A stretch of DNA of 51,693 nt, from contig JALSHG010000089.1 in assembly GCA_026982355.1 (NCBI GenBank), positions 1-51,693 on the forward strand, read 5' to 3'. The stretch comes from Thermodesulfovibrio sp. Its GTDB lineage: Bacteria > Nitrospirota > Thermodesulfovibrionia > UBA6902. The notes beneath the pieces were generated by a model. That model had not been told where the DNA came from. It did no database searches and saw only the letters and a program-made list of their open reading frames with translations. Each line of letters opens with the position of its first letter. Within the stretch, counting starts at the first letter, position 1. The translations under genes were made by a program, and so were the position numbers. Shown piece by piece: positions 11,453 to 47,385 of the stretch.

Positions 11453-12880
<1,428 letters not shown>

Positions 12881-13198: not shown

Positions 13199-13272
13199 TG
13201 GGGAGTTGTGTAACGGCAGCACGGCAGACTCTGGATCTGCTTGTAGGGGTTCAAATCCTCTCTCCCCAGCCA
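13199..13272 (+). tRNA. tRNA-Gln (anticodon CTG)
   Basis: The sequence folds as a cloverleaf: acceptor TGGGGAG with CTCCCCA, anticodon stem GCAGA with TCTGC around loop CTCTGGA, T-loop TTCAAAT. The anticodon is CTG, reading CAG codons. The 3' CCA is encoded at 13270-13272. The T1 first base and the weak first pair are typical of bacterial tRNA-Gln. Confidence 0.95.
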
Positions 13273-17364: not shown

Positions 17365-19149
17365 TCACTGTTTTTCCAGCTGATGTCTTCTCTCTATCTC
17401 GTACACCCTCATGAACCTGTACCGCCGGATCAGCACCGGATCAGTGTAATCGGCGGCTGACAGTCCTTTTTTCCTCAGAATCCCTTCCGCCGTCCTTACC
17501 GGGCCGTCGGCTATTATCAGTATCCGTCCGGCGGAAGCGGGATCAGCGGAAAAATACGTATCCGGAATGTTATACAGCCTGCGGTAATATACCGATGAAG
17601 GGTGTTGCTCAACATAGGCATCAATGACCCTGTCGCCGGGCCTGAGATATTCCTTGAGAAAAAATGTGACCGGCCTGTAATCATAAACAGTATCCGCCCT
17701 CTGTGAATGAAGCACATTCCAGCTTAACCAGAAAGAAAGCGCAACTGCGAGCACGGGCAATACAATCGCATGGAACCTGCCTTTTTTCATTCCGAGCAGG
17801 CGGGGTAAAAAAGTCACTCCCGCGGACGCCAGGCCAGTGTATACCGGCAGCAGAAACAGCCATATCCGGTTATCGGGTACCACACGCTGCGCTGCCACAA
17901 CGGAGAGGCACCAGATGACCGCCACCGCGGCTACGGGGACGCGGTAGGGGCTTAAGCGCCTGTGAAACACCAGCGAGACGATAAAGCCGCCTGCCAGGGC
18001 GAGACTTACCGCAGGGGGGATATCACTGTTCCAGTAGCGCCACAGTGAAACGAGTGAAGCCGGAAACCTTTCCGTGAAAAATGCCCATGACCTTGATACC
18101 ACCCATGGGTTCGCCACAAGCGCTTTGACGCCTGATACAGCCAGAACAGGGGCGTAAAGTATTGATGTTAAAAGCAACGTAACGGTGGTATATACAGACA
18201 GGGTTTTCAGTGAACTGCGGCGTCCGGCGCCTTTTTGTTCAAACATGATCGACAGGAACAGCCAGATCACTGCTATCCCGAACGGGTAGAGCATTATCGG
18301 GATGGTATAGAAACCGGTTGCCGACAACACGGCGAACAGAAGCCAGGCGCCCGTGTTTCCGCCCTGTTTGAGATACGGCGCAAGGGCAAGGATTGACAGG
18401 AAGATCAGGCATATTATGGAATATCCGCGGGCCGCCGTTGAATACCTGACAAGCGCCGACGAGGCGGCGACAAGGGCTGCCGCCAGGAGCGCTGCATTCC
18501 TGTTGTGGAAGATGCGGGTGAATATGTAGGATGCAGGGACCACGAGTATGCCGGCCACAAGCGCGGGCAGGCGGATCGCCCACGGATGATTGCCGAAAAG
18601 CATATATGAAATATGTGAGAGGAATGTATGGAAGAGATGATTGTTCGGGGCGGAATAATACGTAAGGCCGATGTATAAAGGTTTGGAGACATAGACGTTA
18701 AAGGTGTATGCCTCATCGGTATGCATGGGACGGGAGAGCGCCGCCACTCTCACTGCAATCGCCCCGGCCAGTATTATGAGAAACGCACAGATATGCATCC
18801 AGTCCTCTTTTTCCGCCGCATTCCTGACATCGCGTGCAACGGACGTGAAAAAGGAACGCAGTGATGCCAGGGCATCCGGAATATACTGCTCCGCCTTCCG
18901 CCTGACGGCATGCAGCAGGCCAGCTGCAAAAAACATGGCGGCGGCGGTGACCCTCAGCCTGAGCACTATTTTTTCAAATACTTCAATAGTGAACTTGTCC
19001 GTTGTTCCGCGCAGGGCATAAGAGTCCATCCGGATTTTCAGCCATTGAAAAGGCAGGTATGAGGCGGCAGAAAGCAAGAGCGCAGCCACGAGGAGGAGCG
19101 CCGTTATCACGGCAATGCATATACGGTAACGCCTGTACTTATCGTTCAA
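17365..19149 (-). CDS. Multi-spanning glycosyltransferase, family 39-like
   Basis: This integral membrane protein has about ten hydrophobic segments and the N-terminal acidic pair of the PMT/ArnT-like GT-C fold (RPMHTDEAYTFN), followed by SAPNNHLFHTFLSH and RLPALVAG. Such enzymes transfer sugars from polyprenyl phosphate donors to lipids or proteins on the outer face of the inner membrane; the acceptor here is unknown. I choose a TTG at 19149, with GGAGGG twelve bases upstream. An ATG at 19200 would give a longer form whose first residues (MQLQGK) lie in the family I repeat and lack a ribosome-binding site. A soluble C-terminal domain follows the last helix. The sulfatase-fold gene is immediately upstream. 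Confidence 0.8.
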   Translation of the reverse strand: MNDKYRRYRICIAVITALLLVAALLLSAASYLPFQWLKIRMDSYALRGTTDKFTIEVFEKIVLRLRVTAAAMFFAAGLLHAVRRKAEQYIPDALASLRSFFTSVARDVRNAAEKEDWMHICAFLIILAGAIAVRVAALSRPMHTDEAYTFNVYVSKPLYIGLTYYSAPNNHLFHTFLSHISYMLFGNHPWAIRLPALVAGILVVPASYIFTRIFHNRNAALLAAALVAASSALVRYSTAARGYSIICLIFLSILALAPYLKQGGNTGAWLLFAVLSATGFYTIPIMLYPFGIAVIWLFLSIMFEQKGAGRRSSLKTLSVYTTVTLLLTSILYAPVLAVSGVKALVANPWVVSRSWAFFTERFPASLVSLWRYWNSDIPPAVSLALAGGFIVSLVFHRRLSPYRVPVAAVAVIWCLSVVAAQRVVPDNRIWLFLLPVYTGLASAGVTFLPRLLGMKKGRFHAIVLPVLAVALSFWLSWNVLHSQRADTVYDYRPVTFFLKEYLRPGDRVIDAYVEQHPSSVYYRRLYNIPDTYFSADPASAGRILIIADGPVRTAEGILRKKGLSAADYTDPVLIRRYRFMRVYEIERRHQLEKQ

Positions 19150-19186
19150 TATTACTGCAGGCCCTCCATGATTTTGCCAGTCTTTA

Positions 19187-19274
19187 CCTTGCAGTTGCAT
19201 AAAACACCGCCCGCCGGACAGGGGAGCCTGGTGTTTTACGGCGGACTCTCCCGCCGGCTTATGCAACATTAAGG
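19187..19274 (-). repeat. Family I inverted repeat, short copy with TTTA flanks
   Basis: The 88-bp copy runs from CCTTGCAG (A end) to CATTAAGG (B end), flanked by TTTA at 19183-19186 and 19275-19278. It provides the last codon and TAA stop of the sulfatase-fold gene, whose frame ends inside it, and its A end faces the glycosyltransferase start. Confidence 0.88.
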
Positions 19275-21224
19275 TTTATTCATAATACTGTCATTGGCCT
19301 TCCCGAGGCCGTCCCGAATCAGAGACAGAAGCCGCCGTGCAGCCTCCGGCTCCCGGTCAACGAGATTTTCAAGCTCTCCGGGGTCGTTCTTCAGATTAAA
19401 CAGAAGGGATGTTTTTTCCTCCAGATTGTGTATGAGCTTGTAGTCACCGTCCCAGACGGCGATCACACCTTTTGTAATCCGGCGGCCGCGGCTTGGATTG
19501 GTCTGTAAATTCATGGAAAATTCCGGCCGTTGCTCTATATCCGCTCCTTTCATAAGGGGCACGAGTGAACGGCCTTCCATCCATGAAGGCACGGGTATGC
19601 CTGCCAGTGCGAGAATCGTGGCAGGGATATCAGCCTGCCCCGCAAGGTCATTGATGACTGTTCCCCCGCGCCGGCCGGGTTCTTTGATGATCAGGGGAAT
19701 GCGGGTCACCTGTTCATAGAGATGTTCGCCGCCATGCCGGAGATACCTGCGCTGGAAGCTCTCCCCGTGGTCCGAAGACAGGATGATCACGCTGTTTTTC
19801 AACAGATCCCTCTCTTGCAGTTCGTTGATGAAATCTTCAAACTGGCTGTCGCAGTAGCTTATGAATTCGTCATAACGAGCCCTTAAAATTCCGACCGCCG
19901 CTTCATTGTAACGGGCGTCGCTGATCCACATTTCCCTCTCCTGGCTCTTGCGCGTCCTGAATTGAGGGGATGAATCGAACATTCCCATGAAGGGTTCAGG
20001 AGGCAGATACGGAAAGTGGGGCGGAAAGAGATGTATCCAGGCAAAAAAAGGCTGCGCGGGCGGATTGTCGTCCATGATATCGAGAAAGCCTGCGAATGCC
20101 TTTGAAGGAGGCGTCACGGTCACCGCGTAGTCTCCGGAGAGGGCGCTCAGCATCCTGCTCAGAATGAAATTTTCCTTTATAACCCAGTTATACAGCCTGA
20201 TCTTCTCGCCGAATCTCCTGTACAGAAAGGCATCGGCAATCTCCACCAGTGATACGGGCGTGCTGAAGGCCGTTGCAGGCGGAGCGACATCAAAACTCTC
20301 CGCCACGCCCAGTGTCTGGACCGATGCGAGGTGGTTTACAATAAACGCCATGTTGTAGTAGCCGTTCTTTTTCAGCAGCAGCGGGAGGCTTTCCGTGCCG
20401 ATTCTGAAGGGCCTTGTTCCTTTCTCATGGTATGTCCGGTGGGTCCACGCCCTCTTGCCGGTCATGAGGGTCGATGTGGTGGGAGGAGTCCAGTTGCTCG
20501 CGGCCTCGGCCTTTGTAAATAATGCCGCTGTCTTCGCCCATTCGCTTATAAAAGGTGTTGTGGGCCTTTCATATCCGTATACCGACATGTCCTCGGCTGC
20601 AAGGGCGTCGAAGGTCACCAGTATGATATTCGGCCGCTCTTTATCCGCTGCGGGACGGATGATTTCCCTTTCCGCCGTCCTGTGCGGTTCTTTCCCCCAT
20701 GAGCAATAAGCCACAAGGGGCACGGAGAGCATCAGCCAGGCTCCGAACAGCCAGACCAGCGGAGTGATCCTGTCCTGTACGGCGTTCATCCACTGTACGG
20801 CCCTGTTGCGGAACAGCCATGACAGAAATACGGCCGCGGCAGTTATGCCCGAGAGTGCCGCAAGTTTCACCTGGAGCGTTGTCTGTCCGTGTTCCCAGAA
20901 AATCCTCTTGCCGAGCCATAGTGTTATGGACAGGAGCAGGAACAGGCATATAAACAGCATCCAGCGCTCCGGCAGGCCGGCCCGGTCCCCGCGCGGAAAA
21001 AACCGCTCCAGTGCTTTAAGCGGTATCCAGGCCAGCAGCGAGGCAAGCACTGATACGGCGCTCCAGAGCACAGTCGCCAGTGCGACGGCGGGCAGGAATT
21101 CGGAAAACGGCGCATAGTACCTGAAGCCGTCCCAGCGGAAAAAGGCATCCCCCAGCAGGTAAAGTGAAAACATCGTGAATATGAGACGGAATATTTTCCA
21201 GCAGGAAGAATTTGCGGGACCCAT
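19269..21224 (-). CDS. Membrane-anchored sulfatase-fold hydrolase or phosphotransferase
   Basis: The 651 residues comprise about five N-terminal membrane segments (to about residue 190) and a periplasmic alkaline-phosphatase-superfamily domain starting RPNIILVTFDALAAEDMSVYG. Metal-site motifs LVTFDA and LSSDHGESFQ are present. The nucleophile position reads NWTPPTTSTLMTG, with threonine rather than the Cys/Ser-x-Pro-x-Arg of true sulfatases, so a lipoteichoic-acid-synthase-like or phosphoethanolamine-transferase-like activity is as likely as sulfatase. The end MNKP and stop lie in the family I repeat, meaning the C-terminus may have been altered by insertion. It sits between two GT39-like genes, suggesting envelope glycan or lipid modification. 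Confidence 0.8.
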   Translation of the reverse strand: MGPANSSCWKIFRLIFTMFSLYLLGDAFFRWDGFRYYAPFSEFLPAVALATVLWSAVSVLASLLAWIPLKALERFFPRGDRAGLPERWMLFICLFLLLSITLWLGKRIFWEHGQTTLQVKLAALSGITAAAVFLSWLFRNRAVQWMNAVQDRITPLVWLFGAWLMLSVPLVAYCSWGKEPHRTAEREIIRPAADKERPNIILVTFDALAAEDMSVYGYERPTTPFISEWAKTAALFTKAEAASNWTPPTTSTLMTGKRAWTHRTYHEKGTRPFRIGTESLPLLLKKNGYYNMAFIVNHLASVQTLGVAESFDVAPPATAFSTPVSLVEIADAFLYRRFGEKIRLYNWVIKENFILSRMLSALSGDYAVTVTPPSKAFAGFLDIMDDNPPAQPFFAWIHLFPPHFPYLPPEPFMGMFDSSPQFRTRKSQEREMWISDARYNEAAVGILRARYDEFISYCDSQFEDFINELQERDLLKNSVIILSSDHGESFQRRYLRHGGEHLYEQVTRIPLIIKEPGRRGGTVINDLAGQADIPATILALAGIPVPSWMEGRSLVPLMKGADIEQRPEFSMNLQTNPSRGRRITKGVIAVWDGDYKLIHNLEEKTSLLFNLKNDPGELENLVDREPEAARRLLSLIRDGLGKANDSIMNKP

Positions 21225-29781: not shown

Positions 29782-31044
29782 TCAGAAACCGAACTCGTTC
29801 AACAGCCCTTCCACGTCGGACTGTGTGATTTTTTCAGCGGCTTTTCCCTTGTGCGCATCCTTACCATCCTGGTCTGAAGCCTCCACGCCGGTGTCTGTTC
29901 CGGAAGGGGTCTTGACCTGCACCCCGAACTTGCCTATTAATGTGAGCAGCTCGGATTCAACATCGTGCACGAGTTGAATAACCTTCTTGATGGTCTGTCC
30001 TATGATATCCTGGAACTGCTGGGCGGTGAGAATATCGGTCATGTCATTATCCAGCGAAGCCTTGAACGCCTTCAGGTAACCGGCCGATTCATCGTGTCCT
30101 TTTATGTTCTCAATATGCCTTGAGAAGGTGTCCGATTCTTCAAAATATCTCTCGACAATCCCCATTGTCCTGTTGGCGGCGTCCTCTGTTTTCTTGATTA
30201 CGAACTGGAGCTTGTCTACCGCATCGGGGACGTCCGTCCTGGTGAGCCTTTCAAGGCCGTGATTTACGGCGCCCTTGAATTCATCCAGCGAGTTGTGAAG
30301 CTTTCTTGTTATCCTGCCCACTTCCCTGAAAAGGTCGCTGTCCGTGGCCTTGATCAGCCGGCTGACGATATCTTCCACTTTGTTGTACTCGTGAGATGAG
30401 AGGGCATCCATGAAGTCCAGCATTAATTTGAATATATTATGCCTCGGGTCGTTCTCGTCAATATTGGCATCAAAATATTCCCTGGCGTCATGCAACTCCG
30501 TGACGGTGATTTTTCCCCCGGAGGTTTCAACCTCTTTGACAACCTGCACTTTATCGCCGCCGTCGGTCTCCGATACCTCGACTATGGCGTCGTTCAGGAG
30601 GCTCATATCCTCCATGGGAAGGAGCTTCCCGGTGTCAAGCAGGACCACGAGCTTTCCGTTGATCTTTGCCACCCCCTCGACATGCTCTGCACCATTGCCT
30701 GCAAACCTCTCCGGGGGCTCTATGCCGGACGCATCGGTCTTGATGACGCCCGTTATCGAATCTACGATAACGCCGAATGCCACTTTCCCGGCGGAAATGA
30801 CGATTACCGTATCGGATGCGCTTTCGTCTCCGGGCGTATTCAAAAGGCCTTTCAGGTTTACTATCGGAATGATGGCGCCCCTTATGTTTGTAACGCCTTT
30901 TATGTACGGCGGCAGTTGGGGCAGCTCTGTGACGGCAGGCATTTTCATTATCTCGCGGACCGTTAAAATCGGGATCATATATTCGCCCGAGTTGAGTTTG
31001 AATCCTATGTACTGTTCCACTGAAACCTCCTCAATAGACTGCAT
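29782..31044 (-). CDS. CheW-CheZ fusion: array adaptor joined to CheY-P phosphatase
   Basis: Residues 9-145 form a CheW domain (EQYIGFKLNSGEYMIPILTV, YIKGVTNIRGAIIPIVNL, VEGVAKINGKLVVLLDTGK). A linker of about 85 residues follows. Residues 236-420 look like a complete CheZ: FREVGRITRKLHNSLDEF, VPDAVDKLQFVIKKTEDAAN, and the catalytic helix TAQQFQDIIGQTIKKV with D346 and Q350 in the D-x-x-G-Q spacing of E. coli D143/Q147. The last residues, SDVEGLLNEFGF, match the CheZ C-terminal peptide that grips CheY-P (E. coli DQVDDLLDSLGF). The parts are seen directly; that this protein tethers dephosphorylation of CheY-P to the array is inference. It is encoded between cheA and cheW. I see no frameshift or internal start suggesting two separate genes. 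Confidence 0.93.
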   Translation of the reverse strand: MQSIEEVSVEQYIGFKLNSGEYMIPILTVREIMKMPAVTELPQLPPYIKGVTNIRGAIIPIVNLKGLLNTPGDESASDTVIVISAGKVAFGVIVDSITGVIKTDASGIEPPERFAGNGAEHVEGVAKINGKLVVLLDTGKLLPMEDMSLLNDAIVEVSETDGGDKVQVVKEVETSGGKITVTELHDAREYFDANIDENDPRHNIFKLMLDFMDALSSHEYNKVEDIVSRLIKATDSDLFREVGRITRKLHNSLDEFKGAVNHGLERLTRTDVPDAVDKLQFVIKKTEDAANRTMGIVERYFEESDTFSRHIENIKGHDESAGYLKAFKASLDNDMTDILTAQQFQDIIGQTIKKVIQLVHDVESELLTLIGKFGVQVKTPSGTDTGVEASDQDGKDAHKGKAAEKITQSDVEGLLNEFGF

Positions 31045-37668: not shown

Positions 37669-37794
37669 TATATTATCGGGAAGCAAGGGCGATTTCTTTA
37701 ATTCTGTGGAGAATTTGTGCGGCGTTCATGTAAAATTGTTTCATAATCCCGGACCCTCCCGGACCCGGAGGGAATGATGAAAGGAGATGCATAT

Positions 37795-39480
37795 ATGAGC
37801 GGAGACGCCTCGGAACACACATCAGACTTCATACGTCATATCATCAGGGAGGATATAAGGGCCGGCAGGAACAACGGGAGGGTTCACACTCGTTTCCCCC
37901 CCGAGCCGAACGGTTACCTGCATATCGGCCATGCAAAGTCCATCTGCCTGAATTTCGGCGTGGCCCGTGAATTCAACGGCCTCTGCAACCTGCGGTTTGA
38001 CGACACCAACCCGAGCAGGGAAGAGGCGGAGTACGTGGAGTCGATCAAGTCGGATGTCAGGTGGCTCGGGTTCGACTGGGGTGACAGGTTGTTCTTCGCA
38101 TCAGACTACTTTGAACAACTGTACCGCTACGCCGTCGAGCTGATAAAGGCCGGTATGGCGTATGTCTGCGACCTGAGCGCTGAAGAGATAAGGCAGTACA
38201 GGGGGACTCTGACCTCACCCGGCAGGGAAAGCCCGTACCGCAACCGGACGGTCGAAGAAAACCTCGATCTCTTTGAGCGCATGAGGGCCGGTGAGTTCGA
38301 GGACGGCGCCCGCACGCTCCGCGCAAAAATCGACATGACCTCGGGCAATATCAACATGCGGGACCCGGTTATTTACCGGATACAGCACACAACTCATCAC
38401 AGAACGGGCGACAGGTGGTGCATTTATCCCATGTACGACTTCGCACACTGCGTCTCGGACTCCATCGAGGGGATTACACACTCCCTCTGCACCCTCGAAT
38501 TTGAAGACCACCGCCCCCTGTATGACTGGTTCCTCGATAAGCTCGGAATATTCCATCCGCAGCAGATCGAGTTTGCGCGTCTGAATCTCAGCCATACGGT
38601 CATGAGCAAGAGAAAACTCCTGAAGCTCGTGGAAGAAGGCCATGTCAGGGGATGGGACGACCCGAGGATGCCCACAATATCCGGCCTGAGGAGGCGGGGC
38701 TTCACCCCTGCCTCGATAAGGAATTTCTGCGAGCGCATAGGCGTTGCCAGGAGGGACAGCGTGGTTGACATCGCCCTGCTCGAGCACTGCATCCGGGAGG
38801 ATTTAAACAGGACGGCGCCGAGGGTGATGGCCGTGCTGCGTCCGCTGAAACTCGTTATAATCAACTACCCGGAGGGGCAGGTGGAGGAGCTTGAGGCCGT
38901 GAACAATCCGGAAGACCCGGGCGCCGGGACAAGGAAGGTGCCTTTTTCACGCGTTTTATACATAGAGCGGGACGACTTCATGGAGGAGCCGCCGAAGAAG
39001 TTCTACCGCCTCTCACCGGGACGGGAGGTGAGGCTGCGGTATGCGTATTTCATTACATGCACTGATGTGGTAAGGGACGGACGCACGGGCGAGGTTACGG
39101 AAGTACACTGCACTTATGACCCCCGGACACGGGGCGGGGACTCCCCTGACGGCCGTAAGGTCAGGGCGACCCTCCACTGGGTGTCGGCCCCGCATGCAGT
39201 CGTCGCCGAGGTGCGGCTGTACAGCCATTTGTTTACAACCGCCGACCCGGGCGAGATCGGCGATGACCTCGGTGCGCATCTGAATCAGTATTCACTGGAG
39301 ATACTGCGGTCCTGCCGTGTTGAACCGTCCCTGGCGGAGGCCCCGCCGGGCGGCCGCTACCAGTTCGAGAGAGTCGGATATTTCTGTGTCGACCCCGACT
39401 CCGCGCCGGGAAGACCGGTGTTCAACAGGACGGTGACCCTGCGGGATACATGGGCCAGGATCCGGAACTCGCGGAAATAA
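37795..39480 (+). CDS. glnS: Glutaminyl-tRNA synthetase
   Basis: GlnRS charges tRNA(Gln) directly. The class I signatures are [15 protein letters not shown] (HIGH) and the KMSKS-equivalent TVMSKRKLL, with [29 protein letters not shown] and two C-terminal anticodon-binding barrels. Similarity to E. coli GlnRS is visible along the whole length (for example MRDPVIYRI and [17 protein letters not shown]). I start at ATG 37795 with AAAGGAG upstream, giving 561 residues against 554 in E. coli; an ATG seven codons earlier is possible. Bacterial GlnRS is thought to come from eukaryotes by transfer. It coexists here with gatB and tRNA-Gln. Confidence 0.96.
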
Positions 39481-40204: not shown

Positions 40205-41728
40205 ATGGAAGGCGTAACGGACGGGATTAAAGACATAACATCGGGCCAGGAGCTTCATCATGAGATTTTCGGTTCCGTGCTGGACAGGACCGAAATGACC
40301 CCTTACCTGTTGTTGAGGGCGGGGGATTATGAAACCGCTCTCGGACAGGCTACAAAAATGATGGGCAACCGGGGGTTTGATACTGTTGAAGATGAATTGC
40401 ACGAGAGCGAGAAAAAACGGGCGCTGAAGTATGTTGAACAGGCATACCGTTATTTTCTTTATTCCATGTTCCCTTTTGTAAAAAAACAGCTTGAGGCCCT
40501 TTTGCCGTTGAATTCCGGAAACGCCCCCCTTTACCGGGATTGTCTCCGGAAGATCGGGGAAATAGAATCCACCCTGCATACACCCGAGTTCAGAAATATA
40601 GTATCCGATGATCCGCGTCATCTCTTCCTTCTGGCCTCCTCGAGAAAGTACCCGCGTGTGTTTTACGGCTACAGGGGAGGCGTCGATATGGACGTGCCGC
40701 GCCTGTGGCAGCAGATGGCCTGTTCGCTTCTGAAGATGGCCCACCTGATCAAGTCGATTGAAGAAGACAGCCAGGATATAAACGACTATGCCCAACTGGG
40801 GATGTTTCTGGAAGAGCAGGGACAAAGCCTGGAGGACTTATATAATTATGACTGGCAGCATCCGGAACTCATCCCTGAAAACGAGGCCGCCCAAAGGGCC
40901 TTTGTCAAGATTTCCACTTTTTTCCTCAAGCTCCGCGAATCGCTCAGGTTTGATCATGAAAAGGGATGCCTCGTGTTCAACAGCGGAGACGGCGTCGAGG
41001 TTGATATTGCGGATATCAAGTCCAGGCTGAAGAGCCCTGAGAGCATGTTTACCAAGCTGGGCAAGGATGTGCATGGAGAGGCCCATAATATCAGGGACAT
41101 ACTTGCCATCACATTCATTCTGAAGAGCAGAGATGATACACTTAAGCTTTTCCATGCACTTCAGAAAAGGGGCGTCATACTCCAGGAAAACACCATATCC
41201 CATTCCATAACCCAGACACTGTTCGACAGCCCGGAGAGCATGATTGAAGCGGTAAGGAGACTGATGATAAGCCTCTGCCGGAGCGAGGGCAAGGATATTG
41301 TGCCTGATGACAAAGAGCTGCTTGCCAATGCGAGAAGCTTCTACAACGCCCTTGGCGCCAACACGGCAAAAAACCCGTATTCTTCCTCGGGACATAAGAA
41401 GTTTCAGTGCAAGATAAATTTCTGCGTGCCTGTTCACCGCAAGGCCGGAAGCAACGAGATACTGATACCGGGCACACCGGACTACATGAACAGGCATCAT
41501 ATCGATAAAAAAACGGAACAGCACACACTGGCACTGGAGCTGCGCATATCGGACGAGGAAAGCTGGCGCAGGTCCGAACACGGGGGTGATTCCCATCATG
41601 ATGCGTACAAGTTCCGCCAGTTGATTGCTGTTATGAACAGGGTGTTTAAAGGTGTTTTTTATTTTCCGGAGGAGAGATTTGCACGGTTAAGGGAAGACCA
41701 GAGAAGACTTTTCCCCGGCGTTGCATAA
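40205..41728 (+). CDS. Uncharacterised protein with RelA/SpoT-like nucleotidyltransferase motifs
   Basis: I do not recognise this 507-residue protein with certainty (it may belong to an uncharacterised family such as TIGR04552, from memory). Residues 1-250 look helical. From 270 the motifs follow RelA/SpoT synthetase order: SRLKSPESMFTKL (compare the R-x-K-S-x-x-S-x-x-x-K ATP loop), NIRDILAITFIL with D298 at the metal-aspartate position, GHKKFQCKINF in place of the GYxSLH region, then LALELRI (E445) and SEHGGDSHHDAYKF resembling the end of the synthetase domain. Insertions of about 55 and 33 residues separate these. No HD hydrolase or TGS domain is seen. Its final residues and stop lie in a family I repeat. 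ubiD follows on the same strand. Confidence 0.6.
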   Translation: MEGVTDGIKDITSGQELHHEIFGSVLDRTEMTPYLLLRAGDYETALGQATKMMGNRGFDTVEDELHESEKKRALKYVEQAYRYFLYSMFPFVKKQLEALLPLNSGNAPLYRDCLRKIGEIESTLHTPEFRNIVSDDPRHLFLLASSRKYPRVFYGYRGGVDMDVPRLWQQMACSLLKMAHLIKSIEEDSQDINDYAQLGMFLEEQGQSLEDLYNYDWQHPELIPENEAAQRAFVKISTFFLKLRESLRFDHEKGCLVFNSGDGVEVDIADIKSRLKSPESMFTKLGKDVHGEAHNIRDILAITFILKSRDDTLKLFHALQKRGVILQENTISHSITQTLFDSPESMIEAVRRLMISLCRSEGKDIVPDDKELLANARSFYNALGANTAKNPYSSSGHKKFQCKINFCVPVHRKAGSNEILIPGTPDYMNRHHIDKKTEQHTLALELRISDEESWRRSEHGGDSHHDAYKFRQLIAVMNRVFKGVFYFPEERFARLREDQRRLFPGVA

Positions 41729-45591: not shown

Positions 45592-47385
45592 ATGGCTGGT
45601 GCATCTGTTGTCAAAACGGCAAGACCATACGTTATAACAAGAAAGAAGGTGATATTCGACTATGCGGGCCTTGACTGCGACACCCCCGAGAAACTGTTGA
45701 GAAGCCCCCTGTTCCTTGAAATTGTCGAGAGGTTCATAGAGCGGATCGCATCAAAAGGCAGCTCCATTTTTGCCTTTCTCAGCGAGAGCCTGCCCGGCGT
45801 CAGGCGCGATGAAATGGCAGGCAGCCTCGTCAACCTCTTCAGGCTCCTTGCCGGCCATACCGCCGCGGAAGTGCTTGCAATGAACAGGGACTACGAACGT
45901 TTAATATCAAATCCCGAGTATCTGCACGAGTTTATCGAGGAACTGTACAACTACTGGAGGCGCATGGAGAGGTTCATCTACATTGAAGCGCCCAAAAGGT
46001 CCGGGTATGCAAAAAGCAATATACTTCACACCCGGTTTATCAAGGCCAATGATGAACTCAAGAATAACGTCCTTTACGTGTACAGGCGTGTCGGAGAAAA
46101 CCTGCTCGGAAAAAACCCGCGTGTTTACAGGCAGTTGCCGGCCGGCGCCAATATGGGGATGCTTCTTGAAAAGATAGAGTGGAAGTGCCCCAAAGAGCTT
46201 GAGGTGCTGCTGGATGTTCCGTTTATCAGGCTTTCACTGATAGAGCCTCCGTTGATTCTTTACCCGGAGATGAACAAGAGAAAGGGCAAGTTCAGTGAAA
46301 TAAGCGGGCTGAAGGACGGGATGCTTCAGATTGACCCCGGCGAGTGGTTCTGTTTCCCCGCAAAGGTCGGGGCATTGACCGCGCATATATATTTTCATCA
46401 GGACTTTATATCACTGGGGCTCTCCCTGAGCAATCTCTTTGAAATAGCGGATTTTGAAGACATTGAAGGCAGGCAGCCGGAAATAATGCTGCTTTTCGGC
46501 CTTAAGTACAGGGGGTTGCCGCATAATACGGCGTTTTACGAGGATCCGGAGACAGGCATCCTCATAGGCCTGATAGCCCACTCTGAGGAGGTTGATTATT
46601 TCGGCTATTTCAAGAAGATGACGCTTACACTGCATAACATCGCCATGCTCAACCGGGGATATATGCCTGTTCACGGGGCAATGGTGTATATCAGGCTCAA
46701 GGAGGGCGGCAGTGCCAATGTGCTGATAATCGGCGACAGCGGCGCCGGGAAGTCCGAGACCCTTGAGGCATTCCGCGTGCTTGCGGATGAGCATATCTGC
46801 GAAATGAGGATCATCTTTGATGATATGGGTTCAATCGCCGTAAACGACAGGGGGGAAGTAGTCGGTTACGGGACGGAAATCGGCGCATTTGTGAGACTCG
46901 ACGACCTGCAGCCCGGATATGCGTATGAAGAGATAGACAGGAGCATATTCATGAATCCGGATAAAGGCAATGCGCGCCTCATAGTGCCTATAACGCGGTA
47001 TTCCCATATAATCAGGGGGTATCCTCTCGATATCGTGCTTTATGCCAACAACTATGAGAAGATAGACGACGAGCACCCCATTATAGAGTTTTTTTCATCC
47101 ATGGAAGAGGCCCTTTCCGTATTCAGAAGCGGTGCCCGCTTTGCCAAAGGGACAACCGACGAAAAGGGTATAGTGCATACTTACTTTGCAAATCCTTTCG
47201 GCGCCCCGCAGCGCAAAGAGACCCATGAGAAGATAGTCAGGCGGTATTTCAGCAGGATGTTCGAGTCGGGGGTAAAGGTCGGACAGGTAAGAACCAGGCT
47301 CGGCATCGAAGGTTACGAACAGATGGGCCCTCACCTGGCATCCAAAGAGCTTTTTAATATTATCAAACAGATGCGTTCATCCTGA
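45592..47385 (+). CDS. Large P-loop protein with HPr-kinase/PEP-carboxykinase-like domain
   Basis: The 597-residue protein ends in a P-loop domain: GYMPVHGAMVYIRLKEGGSA, Walker A IIGDSGAGKSETLEAF near residue 380, and a Walker-B-like MRIIFDDMGSIAVND. GDSGAGKSE closely resembles the HPr kinase loop and its PEP-carboxykinase relatives. The first 350 residues form a helical then beta-rich region I do not recognise; it contains YNYWRRMERFIYIEAPKRSG and DPGEWFCFPAKVGALTAHIY. Function may be phosphorylation of a partner protein or an ATP-dependent sugar-phosphate step; no PTS gene is nearby. It stands alone with its own promoter. Confidence 0.72.
   Translation: MAGASVVKTARPYVITRKKVIFDYAGLDCDTPEKLLRSPLFLEIVERFIERIASKGSSIFAFLSESLPGVRRDEMAGSLVNLFRLLAGHTAAEVLAMNRDYERLISNPEYLHEFIEELYNYWRRMERFIYIEAPKRSGYAKSNILHTRFIKANDELKNNVLYVYRRVGENLLGKNPRVYRQLPAGANMGMLLEKIEWKCPKELEVLLDVPFIRLSLIEPPLILYPEMNKRKGKFSEISGLKDGMLQIDPGEWFCFPAKVGALTAHIYFHQDFISLGLSLSNLFEIADFEDIEGRQPEIMLLFGLKYRGLPHNTAFYEDPETGILIGLIAHSEEVDYFGYFKKMTLTLHNIAMLNRGYMPVHGAMVYIRLKEGGSANVLIIGDSGAGKSETLEAFRVLADEHICEMRIIFDDMGSIAVNDRGEVVGYGTEIGAFVRLDDLQPGYAYEEIDRSIFMNPDKGNARLIVPITRYSHIIRGYPLDIVLYANNYEKIDDEHPIIEFFSSMEEALSVFRSGARFAKGTTDEKGIVHTYFANPFGAPQRKETHEKIVRRYFSRMFESGVKVGQVRTRLGIEGYEQMGPHLASKELFNIIKQMRSS

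Follow-up and report, generated by a model that had tools for sequence, protein, structure and literature searches.

The window analysed here, a stretch of 51,693 nucleotides from Thermodesulfovibrio sp. (contig JALSHG010000089.1), encodes a protein that, judged from its sequence and a structure model, is probably an active (pyro)phosphotransferase of housekeeping-like character whose donor and acceptor specificity is altered and which may be under N-terminal control. The products of RelA/SpoT-fold enzymes are (p)ppGpp, (p)ppApp or pyrophosphorylated tRNA. The gene product comprises two parts, a helical N-terminal domain and a C-terminal domain of the RelA/SpoT fold. The fold was computed, the donor-phosphate and metal positions were found to be kept, the base contacts to be replaced, and both halves of the gene to be under purifying selection. 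The gene and its two parts are as follows:

40205..41728, + strand: complete gene, 507 aa (ORF call, full-length relatives, dN/dS)
40205..40879, + strand: residues 1-225, predicted all-helical domain, no HD motif (structure model, invariance, TIGR04552 alignment)
40880..41725, + strand: residues 226-507, predicted RelA/SpoT-type synthetase fold (Foldseek, VIA, PF04607, TIGR04552/TIGR04562)

The reading frame from which the original prediction started was confirmed by the ORF call. Full-length relatives of the 507-aa protein were aligned over the whole length with 51-93% identity, and in close pairs dN/dS was 0.04-0.12 for the whole gene, indicating strong purifying selection, and at most 0.16 in each half. 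The stretch 40205-41728 is a functional gene and not a relic. It sits between a glutaminyl-tRNA synthetase gene and a UbiD-family decarboxylase gene. Genes of the family are standalone and single-copy, and among about 50 loci compared the neighbours were conserved only among close kin, with no shared partner gene.

Several other features of the window were recorded. It carries both GatB of the amidotransferase route (11453-12880, -) and the glutaminyl-tRNA synthetase (37774-39480, +), with tRNA-Gln at 13199-13272. A 420-aa ORF (29782-31044, -) matched CheW (1.6e-34) and CheZ (3.9e-34) and is an apparent CheW-CheZ fusion lying within a CheA/CheB/CheR cluster. The 597-aa protein at 45592-47385 (+) resembled P-loop families only weakly (HPr kinase C-terminal, AAA, PEPCK) and could not be assigned to a family, and the 634-aa ORF at 17365-19269 (-), which adjoins an arylsulfatase-like protein at 19269-21224, had no NCBIfam match.

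One scan of the genome collection yielded 44 loci with relatives. Of the 45 sequences collected, most came from Nitrospirota and two from Spirochaetota, and a single clade from Methylococcaceae lay nested among them. The carriers are scattered soil, groundwater and methane-eating bacteria, and the distribution is patchy: the family was detected in 12 of 198 Nitrospirota genomes (the window's own counted), 18 of the 37 genomes of the window's own family (itself counted, one being a 36-residue fragment), 13 of 101 genomes of a Methylococcaceae carrier's family and, counting matches of the strength expected for the family, 2 of 198 Spirochaetota. In a tree with an arbitrary root and some open forks, all ten Methylococcaceae/Methylococcales sequences grouped together in a single clade with full support, nested among those from Nitrospirota. 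This nesting suggests one transfer between the Nitrospirota and Methylococcaceae/Methylococcales lineages. One or two canonical long RSHs (RelA/SpoT/Rel) were present in five carrier genomes and in the window's own genome, where the canonical Rel is located on C116. In the Spirochaetales genome G199 (L066), a 418-aa frame besides Rel also exceeds the RelA_SpoT cut-off, at 76 bits, and is probably another short synthetase.

Structure prediction with fold comparison and a sensitive profile search had been proposed as checks on the original prediction of a possible divergent RelA/SpoT-like nucleotide synthetase. The structure model, built from 32 relatives, had a mean pLDDT of 80.8 and a pTM of 0.71. 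In the Foldseek search of the PDB, ranks 1-38 were all RSH (alarmone) synthetases, beginning with 2be3 (E 2.4e-3, probability 1.00), with a target-normalised TM of about 0.4-0.5. VIA-align gave Z 8.9 to Bacillus subtilis SAS2 (rmsd 3.8, 165 aligned), 8.8 to SAS1, 8.5 to RelSeq and 8.2 to Escherichia coli RelA on the ribosome, compared with 5-6 for DNA polymerase X and 5.8 for CapRel. Weak match scores are expected for a single domain within a 507-residue model, and a Z near 8, taken alone, would not decide the fold. The call is carried by the agreement of all top structural matches with the independent sequence signal, and the two together support a RelA/SpoT synthetase fold for residues 226-507, as originally predicted. 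In BFVD, the model matched phage RelA/SpoT-like proteins through similarity of fold alone. The top-scoring viral protein there was A0A6J5KIV2 (E 6.9e-5), a 1129-aa phage protein, DdrB-like by name, which ranked above the annotated phage RelA/SpoT proteins.

At the sequence level, PF04607 (RelA_SpoT) matched the window protein with E 3.9e-4 and 21.1 bits, under its gathering cut-off of 27, and 29 of the 32 members matched at E<0.1 (best E 4.5e-5), these members being related and the counts not independent. Residues 255-482 matched the NCBIfam models TIGR04552 (E 8.5e-20) and TIGR04562 (E 3.2e-19), and each model matched 32/32 members. The scores of the window protein (71.4 and 69.3 bits) lie below both curated cut-offs (125 and 140), but an E-value of this size shows common descent with TIGR04552/TIGR04562. 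Two true TIGR04552 members were compared, from genomes L090 and L099. The L090 protein, a true member of TIGR04552/TIGR04562 with 295-327 bits, scores 28.2 bits (E 2.5e-6) against Pfam RelA_SpoT over the full domain, above the cut-off, and BLASTP of the L090 and L099 proteins against the family gave best matches of E 1e-9 to 2e-6. The chain from RSH through TIGR04552 to the window family thus consists of steps that are each significant. Direct hhalign profile-profile comparison with 11 long RSHs reached no significance with either the whole protein or its domains (probability below 1%), although the best local placement fell on the expected motif. A profile search of PDB sequences returned nothing but weak matches to RTT109, which were judged to be due to chance. 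In the literature searched, TIGR04552 was mentioned once in passing, for a small indel in evolved Bdellovibrio (PMC9888234), TIGR04562 was not mentioned, and no functional paper was found for either. Databases recognise the domain family only as TIGR04552-like, with no known function in that literature.

The motifs quoted in the original prediction were all present in the order given there, namely R274-x-K276-S-x-x-S280-x-x-x-K284, R297-D298-I-L, G396-H-K-K, E445-L-R-I and S-E-H-G-G-D-S-H-H-D-A-Y-K. With their putative assignments they are:

41024..41065, + strand: R274-L-K276-S-P-E-S280-M-F-T-K284-L-G-K287, candidate donor-triphosphate motif in the RSH register R-x-K-x3-S-x3-K-x2-K/R
41096..41113, + strand: D298-I-L-A-I-T303, putative metal-binding Asp retained, D+5 Arg replaced by Thr (alignment with RelSeq D264, R269)
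41390..41413, + strand: G396-H397-K-K399-F-Q401-C-K403, G-loop position (sequence alignment, 45 sequences)
41537..41554, + strand: E445-L-R447-I-S-D450, putative second metal-binding Glu retained (VIA range ends, alignment with TIGR04552)
41573..41611, + strand: S457-E-x-x-G-x-x-H464-H465-x-A-Y468-K469, apparent counterpart of RSH A-E-x-G-x-A-A-H-W-x-Y-K (sequence alignment)

The donor-triphosphate ligands of FaRel2 are R64, K66, S70, K74 and R77, with catalytic D90 (PMC11782079); in RelSeq the metal-binding acids are D264 and E323, and the adenine of the ATP donor is held between R241 and R269 (PMC7983052). R274, K276, S280, K284 and D298 were invariant in 45/45 sequences, K287 was kept in 41/45, and E445 was invariant in all 44 sequences reaching the position. 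The pattern R-x-K-x3-S/G-x3-K-x2-K/R followed by D occurred in 144 of 100,000 shuffles of the protein, and the same core motif occurred once among 543 neighbouring ORFs, in the host's genuine Rel. In hhalign, at a probability of just 0.4%, R274, K276, S280, K284 and D298 aligned with the RSH R-x-K..S..K and Asp. In VIA, the ends of the aligned ranges pair model 460-461 with RelSeq 338-339 and model 461 with E. coli RelA 351; together with the sequence alignment bridged by TIGR04552 they suggest that E445 is the counterpart of E323 in RelSeq and of E335 in E. coli RelA. Both metal-binding acids of the SYNTH superfamily thus appear to be retained as D298 and E445, the two residues on which the original prediction had staked the fold.

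The positions for base recognition are different. The RSH G-loop G-Y-x-S-x-H reads G-H-x-K-x-Q in the window family and Y-H-S/A-V-Q in TIGR04552 members, and H397 (43/45 sequences, Gln in 2) stands at the RSH Tyr. A His at this Tyr position had been predicted correctly, but the Tyr had been taken as adenine-stacking, whereas in RSH it stacks the guanine of the acceptor GDP/GTP (RelSeq Y308, PMC7983052). T303 at D+5 (45/45) replaces the second adenine-sandwich Arg (RelSeq R269), so that of the two Arg of the sandwich R274 is kept and the other lost, and R447 at E+2 (44/44) replaces the Gln of E-x-Q (FaRel2 Q147), the RSH E-x-Q-x-R becoming E-x-R-x-S. The corresponding R, Q and Y are kept in RSH and in both TIGR04552 members, the latter retaining RSH-like D-x-x-G-x-R, Tyr and E-x-Q. 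Read from these alignments, the family has thus probably departed from canonical base recognition while retaining the phosphate and metal chemistry. With half of the adenine clamp lost, ATP binding could be weak or absent.

When the N-terminal domain was predicted with its linker helix in a 246-residue construct, it came out helical, and pLDDT fell below 50 only before residue 33, lying mostly at 85-96 beyond it. Its invariant residues are H19, D27, N55-R56-G57, D136-P137-R138, K177, K183, E186-E187 and Q190-D191. Residues 1-225 found no convincing match in the PDB, only low-scoring helical ones (Foldseek E>=0.49, VIA Z<=5.0). The helical character in the original prediction stood, but not entire novelty, as the domain aligns in parts (N55-R56-G57-F58-D59, D136-x-R138 and the helix of L176-K177; judged only by eye and with MAFFT) with an apparently related, shorter N-terminus in TIGR04552 members. 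A degenerate HD domain was rejected, there being no hhalign alignment to HD and no RSH among the fold matches listed, and TPR_17 at 183-209 was too weak (E 0.003, below cut-off, 8/32 members). Pfam gave no HD, TGS or ACT match, in line with the predicted lack of hydrolase, TGS and ACT domains. The two predicted insertions relative to RSH proved real, one at about 322-395, partly common to TIGR04552, and one at about 412-437, absent from TIGR04552 members and much reduced in L042.

Comparison with the closest known systems places the protein as follows. TIGR04552/TIGR04562 share the catalytic domain, K-S/T-x-x-S-x-x-x-K, D, E, S-H..YK and apparent N-terminal counterparts, but the window family is about 150 residues longer. 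RelQ/SAS1 and RelP/SAS2, the best structural matches, share the donor-triphosphate motif and two metal acids, but have neither the replaced base-recognition residues nor the extra 225-residue N-terminal domain. Long RSHs share the synthetase-domain fold, the catalytic D/E and the possession of a helical N-terminal domain, whereas the window protein lacks their HD hydrolase, TGS and ACT, and its N-terminal domain is not detectably related to HD. With the toxSAS FaRel2 and CapRel it shares the fold and the donor-site ligand spacing R-K-S-K-R/K, but no antitoxin partner or pseudo-zinc-finger domain was seen in the window family, which also lacks their G-loop Tyr, adenine Arg and Gln.

We propose a cytoplasmic enzyme, predicted to be active, in which R274, K276, S280, K284 and K287 would hold the donor nucleoside triphosphate and D298 and E445 would bind metal. 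Pyrophosphate, or another phosphate part, would be moved from the triphosphate to an acceptor other than the usual GDP/GTP, and the helical N-terminal domain (1-225) may control the catalytic domain, sensing a ligand, or may bind the acceptor. We infer catalytic activity, an altered substrate and a regulatory N-terminal role. More tentatively, the protein may be a conserved, non-toxic pyrophosphotransferase with an unusual donor and/or acceptor (not ATP with a G nucleotide or tRNA), controlled by a new helical sensor domain and yielding a modified metabolite or a new signal nucleotide. The change at both base-contact positions would also suit a catalytically dead RelA/SpoT fold serving as a nucleotide or alarmone receptor, but such a receptor would have no need for both acids, and neither the metal acids nor the R-x-K-x3-S-x3-K ligands vary among 45 diverged sequences, so that we consider it unlikely. 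A dedicated (p)ppGpp or pGpp synthetase, which would turn ATP and G nucleotides into the classical alarmone upon a signal sensed by the N-terminal domain, would have the same fold, catalytic residues and C-terminal H..YK element, yet other residues stand in place of the guanine-stacking Tyr, the second adenine-sandwich Arg and the E-x-Q Gln, and the carrier genomes tested already own either two long RSHs or a bifunctional Rel of the canonical kind. Given these separate long RSHs, the protein is not the sole alarmone-type synthetase and is probably not the cell's main ppGpp enzyme. Together with the changed base-recognition residues they make alarmone synthesis less likely, at least from ATP and GDP/GTP; the ppGpp synthetase reading is not supported and is quite improbable.

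It is still harder to credit an effector that stops growth, whether as a toxSAS-like tRNA-CCA pyrophosphokinase or in another way, for instance against phage, and that is restrained by its fused N-terminal domain. The fold is common to toxSAS, and regulation by a fused domain exists in CapRel, through its C-terminal domain (PMC9712102), so that N-terminal control of this kind is possible. Against such an effector, evolution is slow and purifying, and the G-loop Tyr required by CapRel is His here. No conserved neighbour and no adjacent antitoxin was found in about 50 loci, PADLOC defence models did not match the gene, and phage, plasmid and viral collections and PHROGs held no relative of the protein; a toxin-antitoxin, defence or phage origin was accordingly rejected.

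The preferred reading thus remains an active (pyro)phosphotransferase of altered specificity. The branch is new as a variant of a known fold, and its substitutions are specific: T303, H397 and R447 are testable predictions. The window family offers a way into TIGR04552/TIGR04562, and a slowly evolving, standalone branch that appears to keep the core and has both base contacts replaced would be a good candidate for an undescribed activity of the fold.
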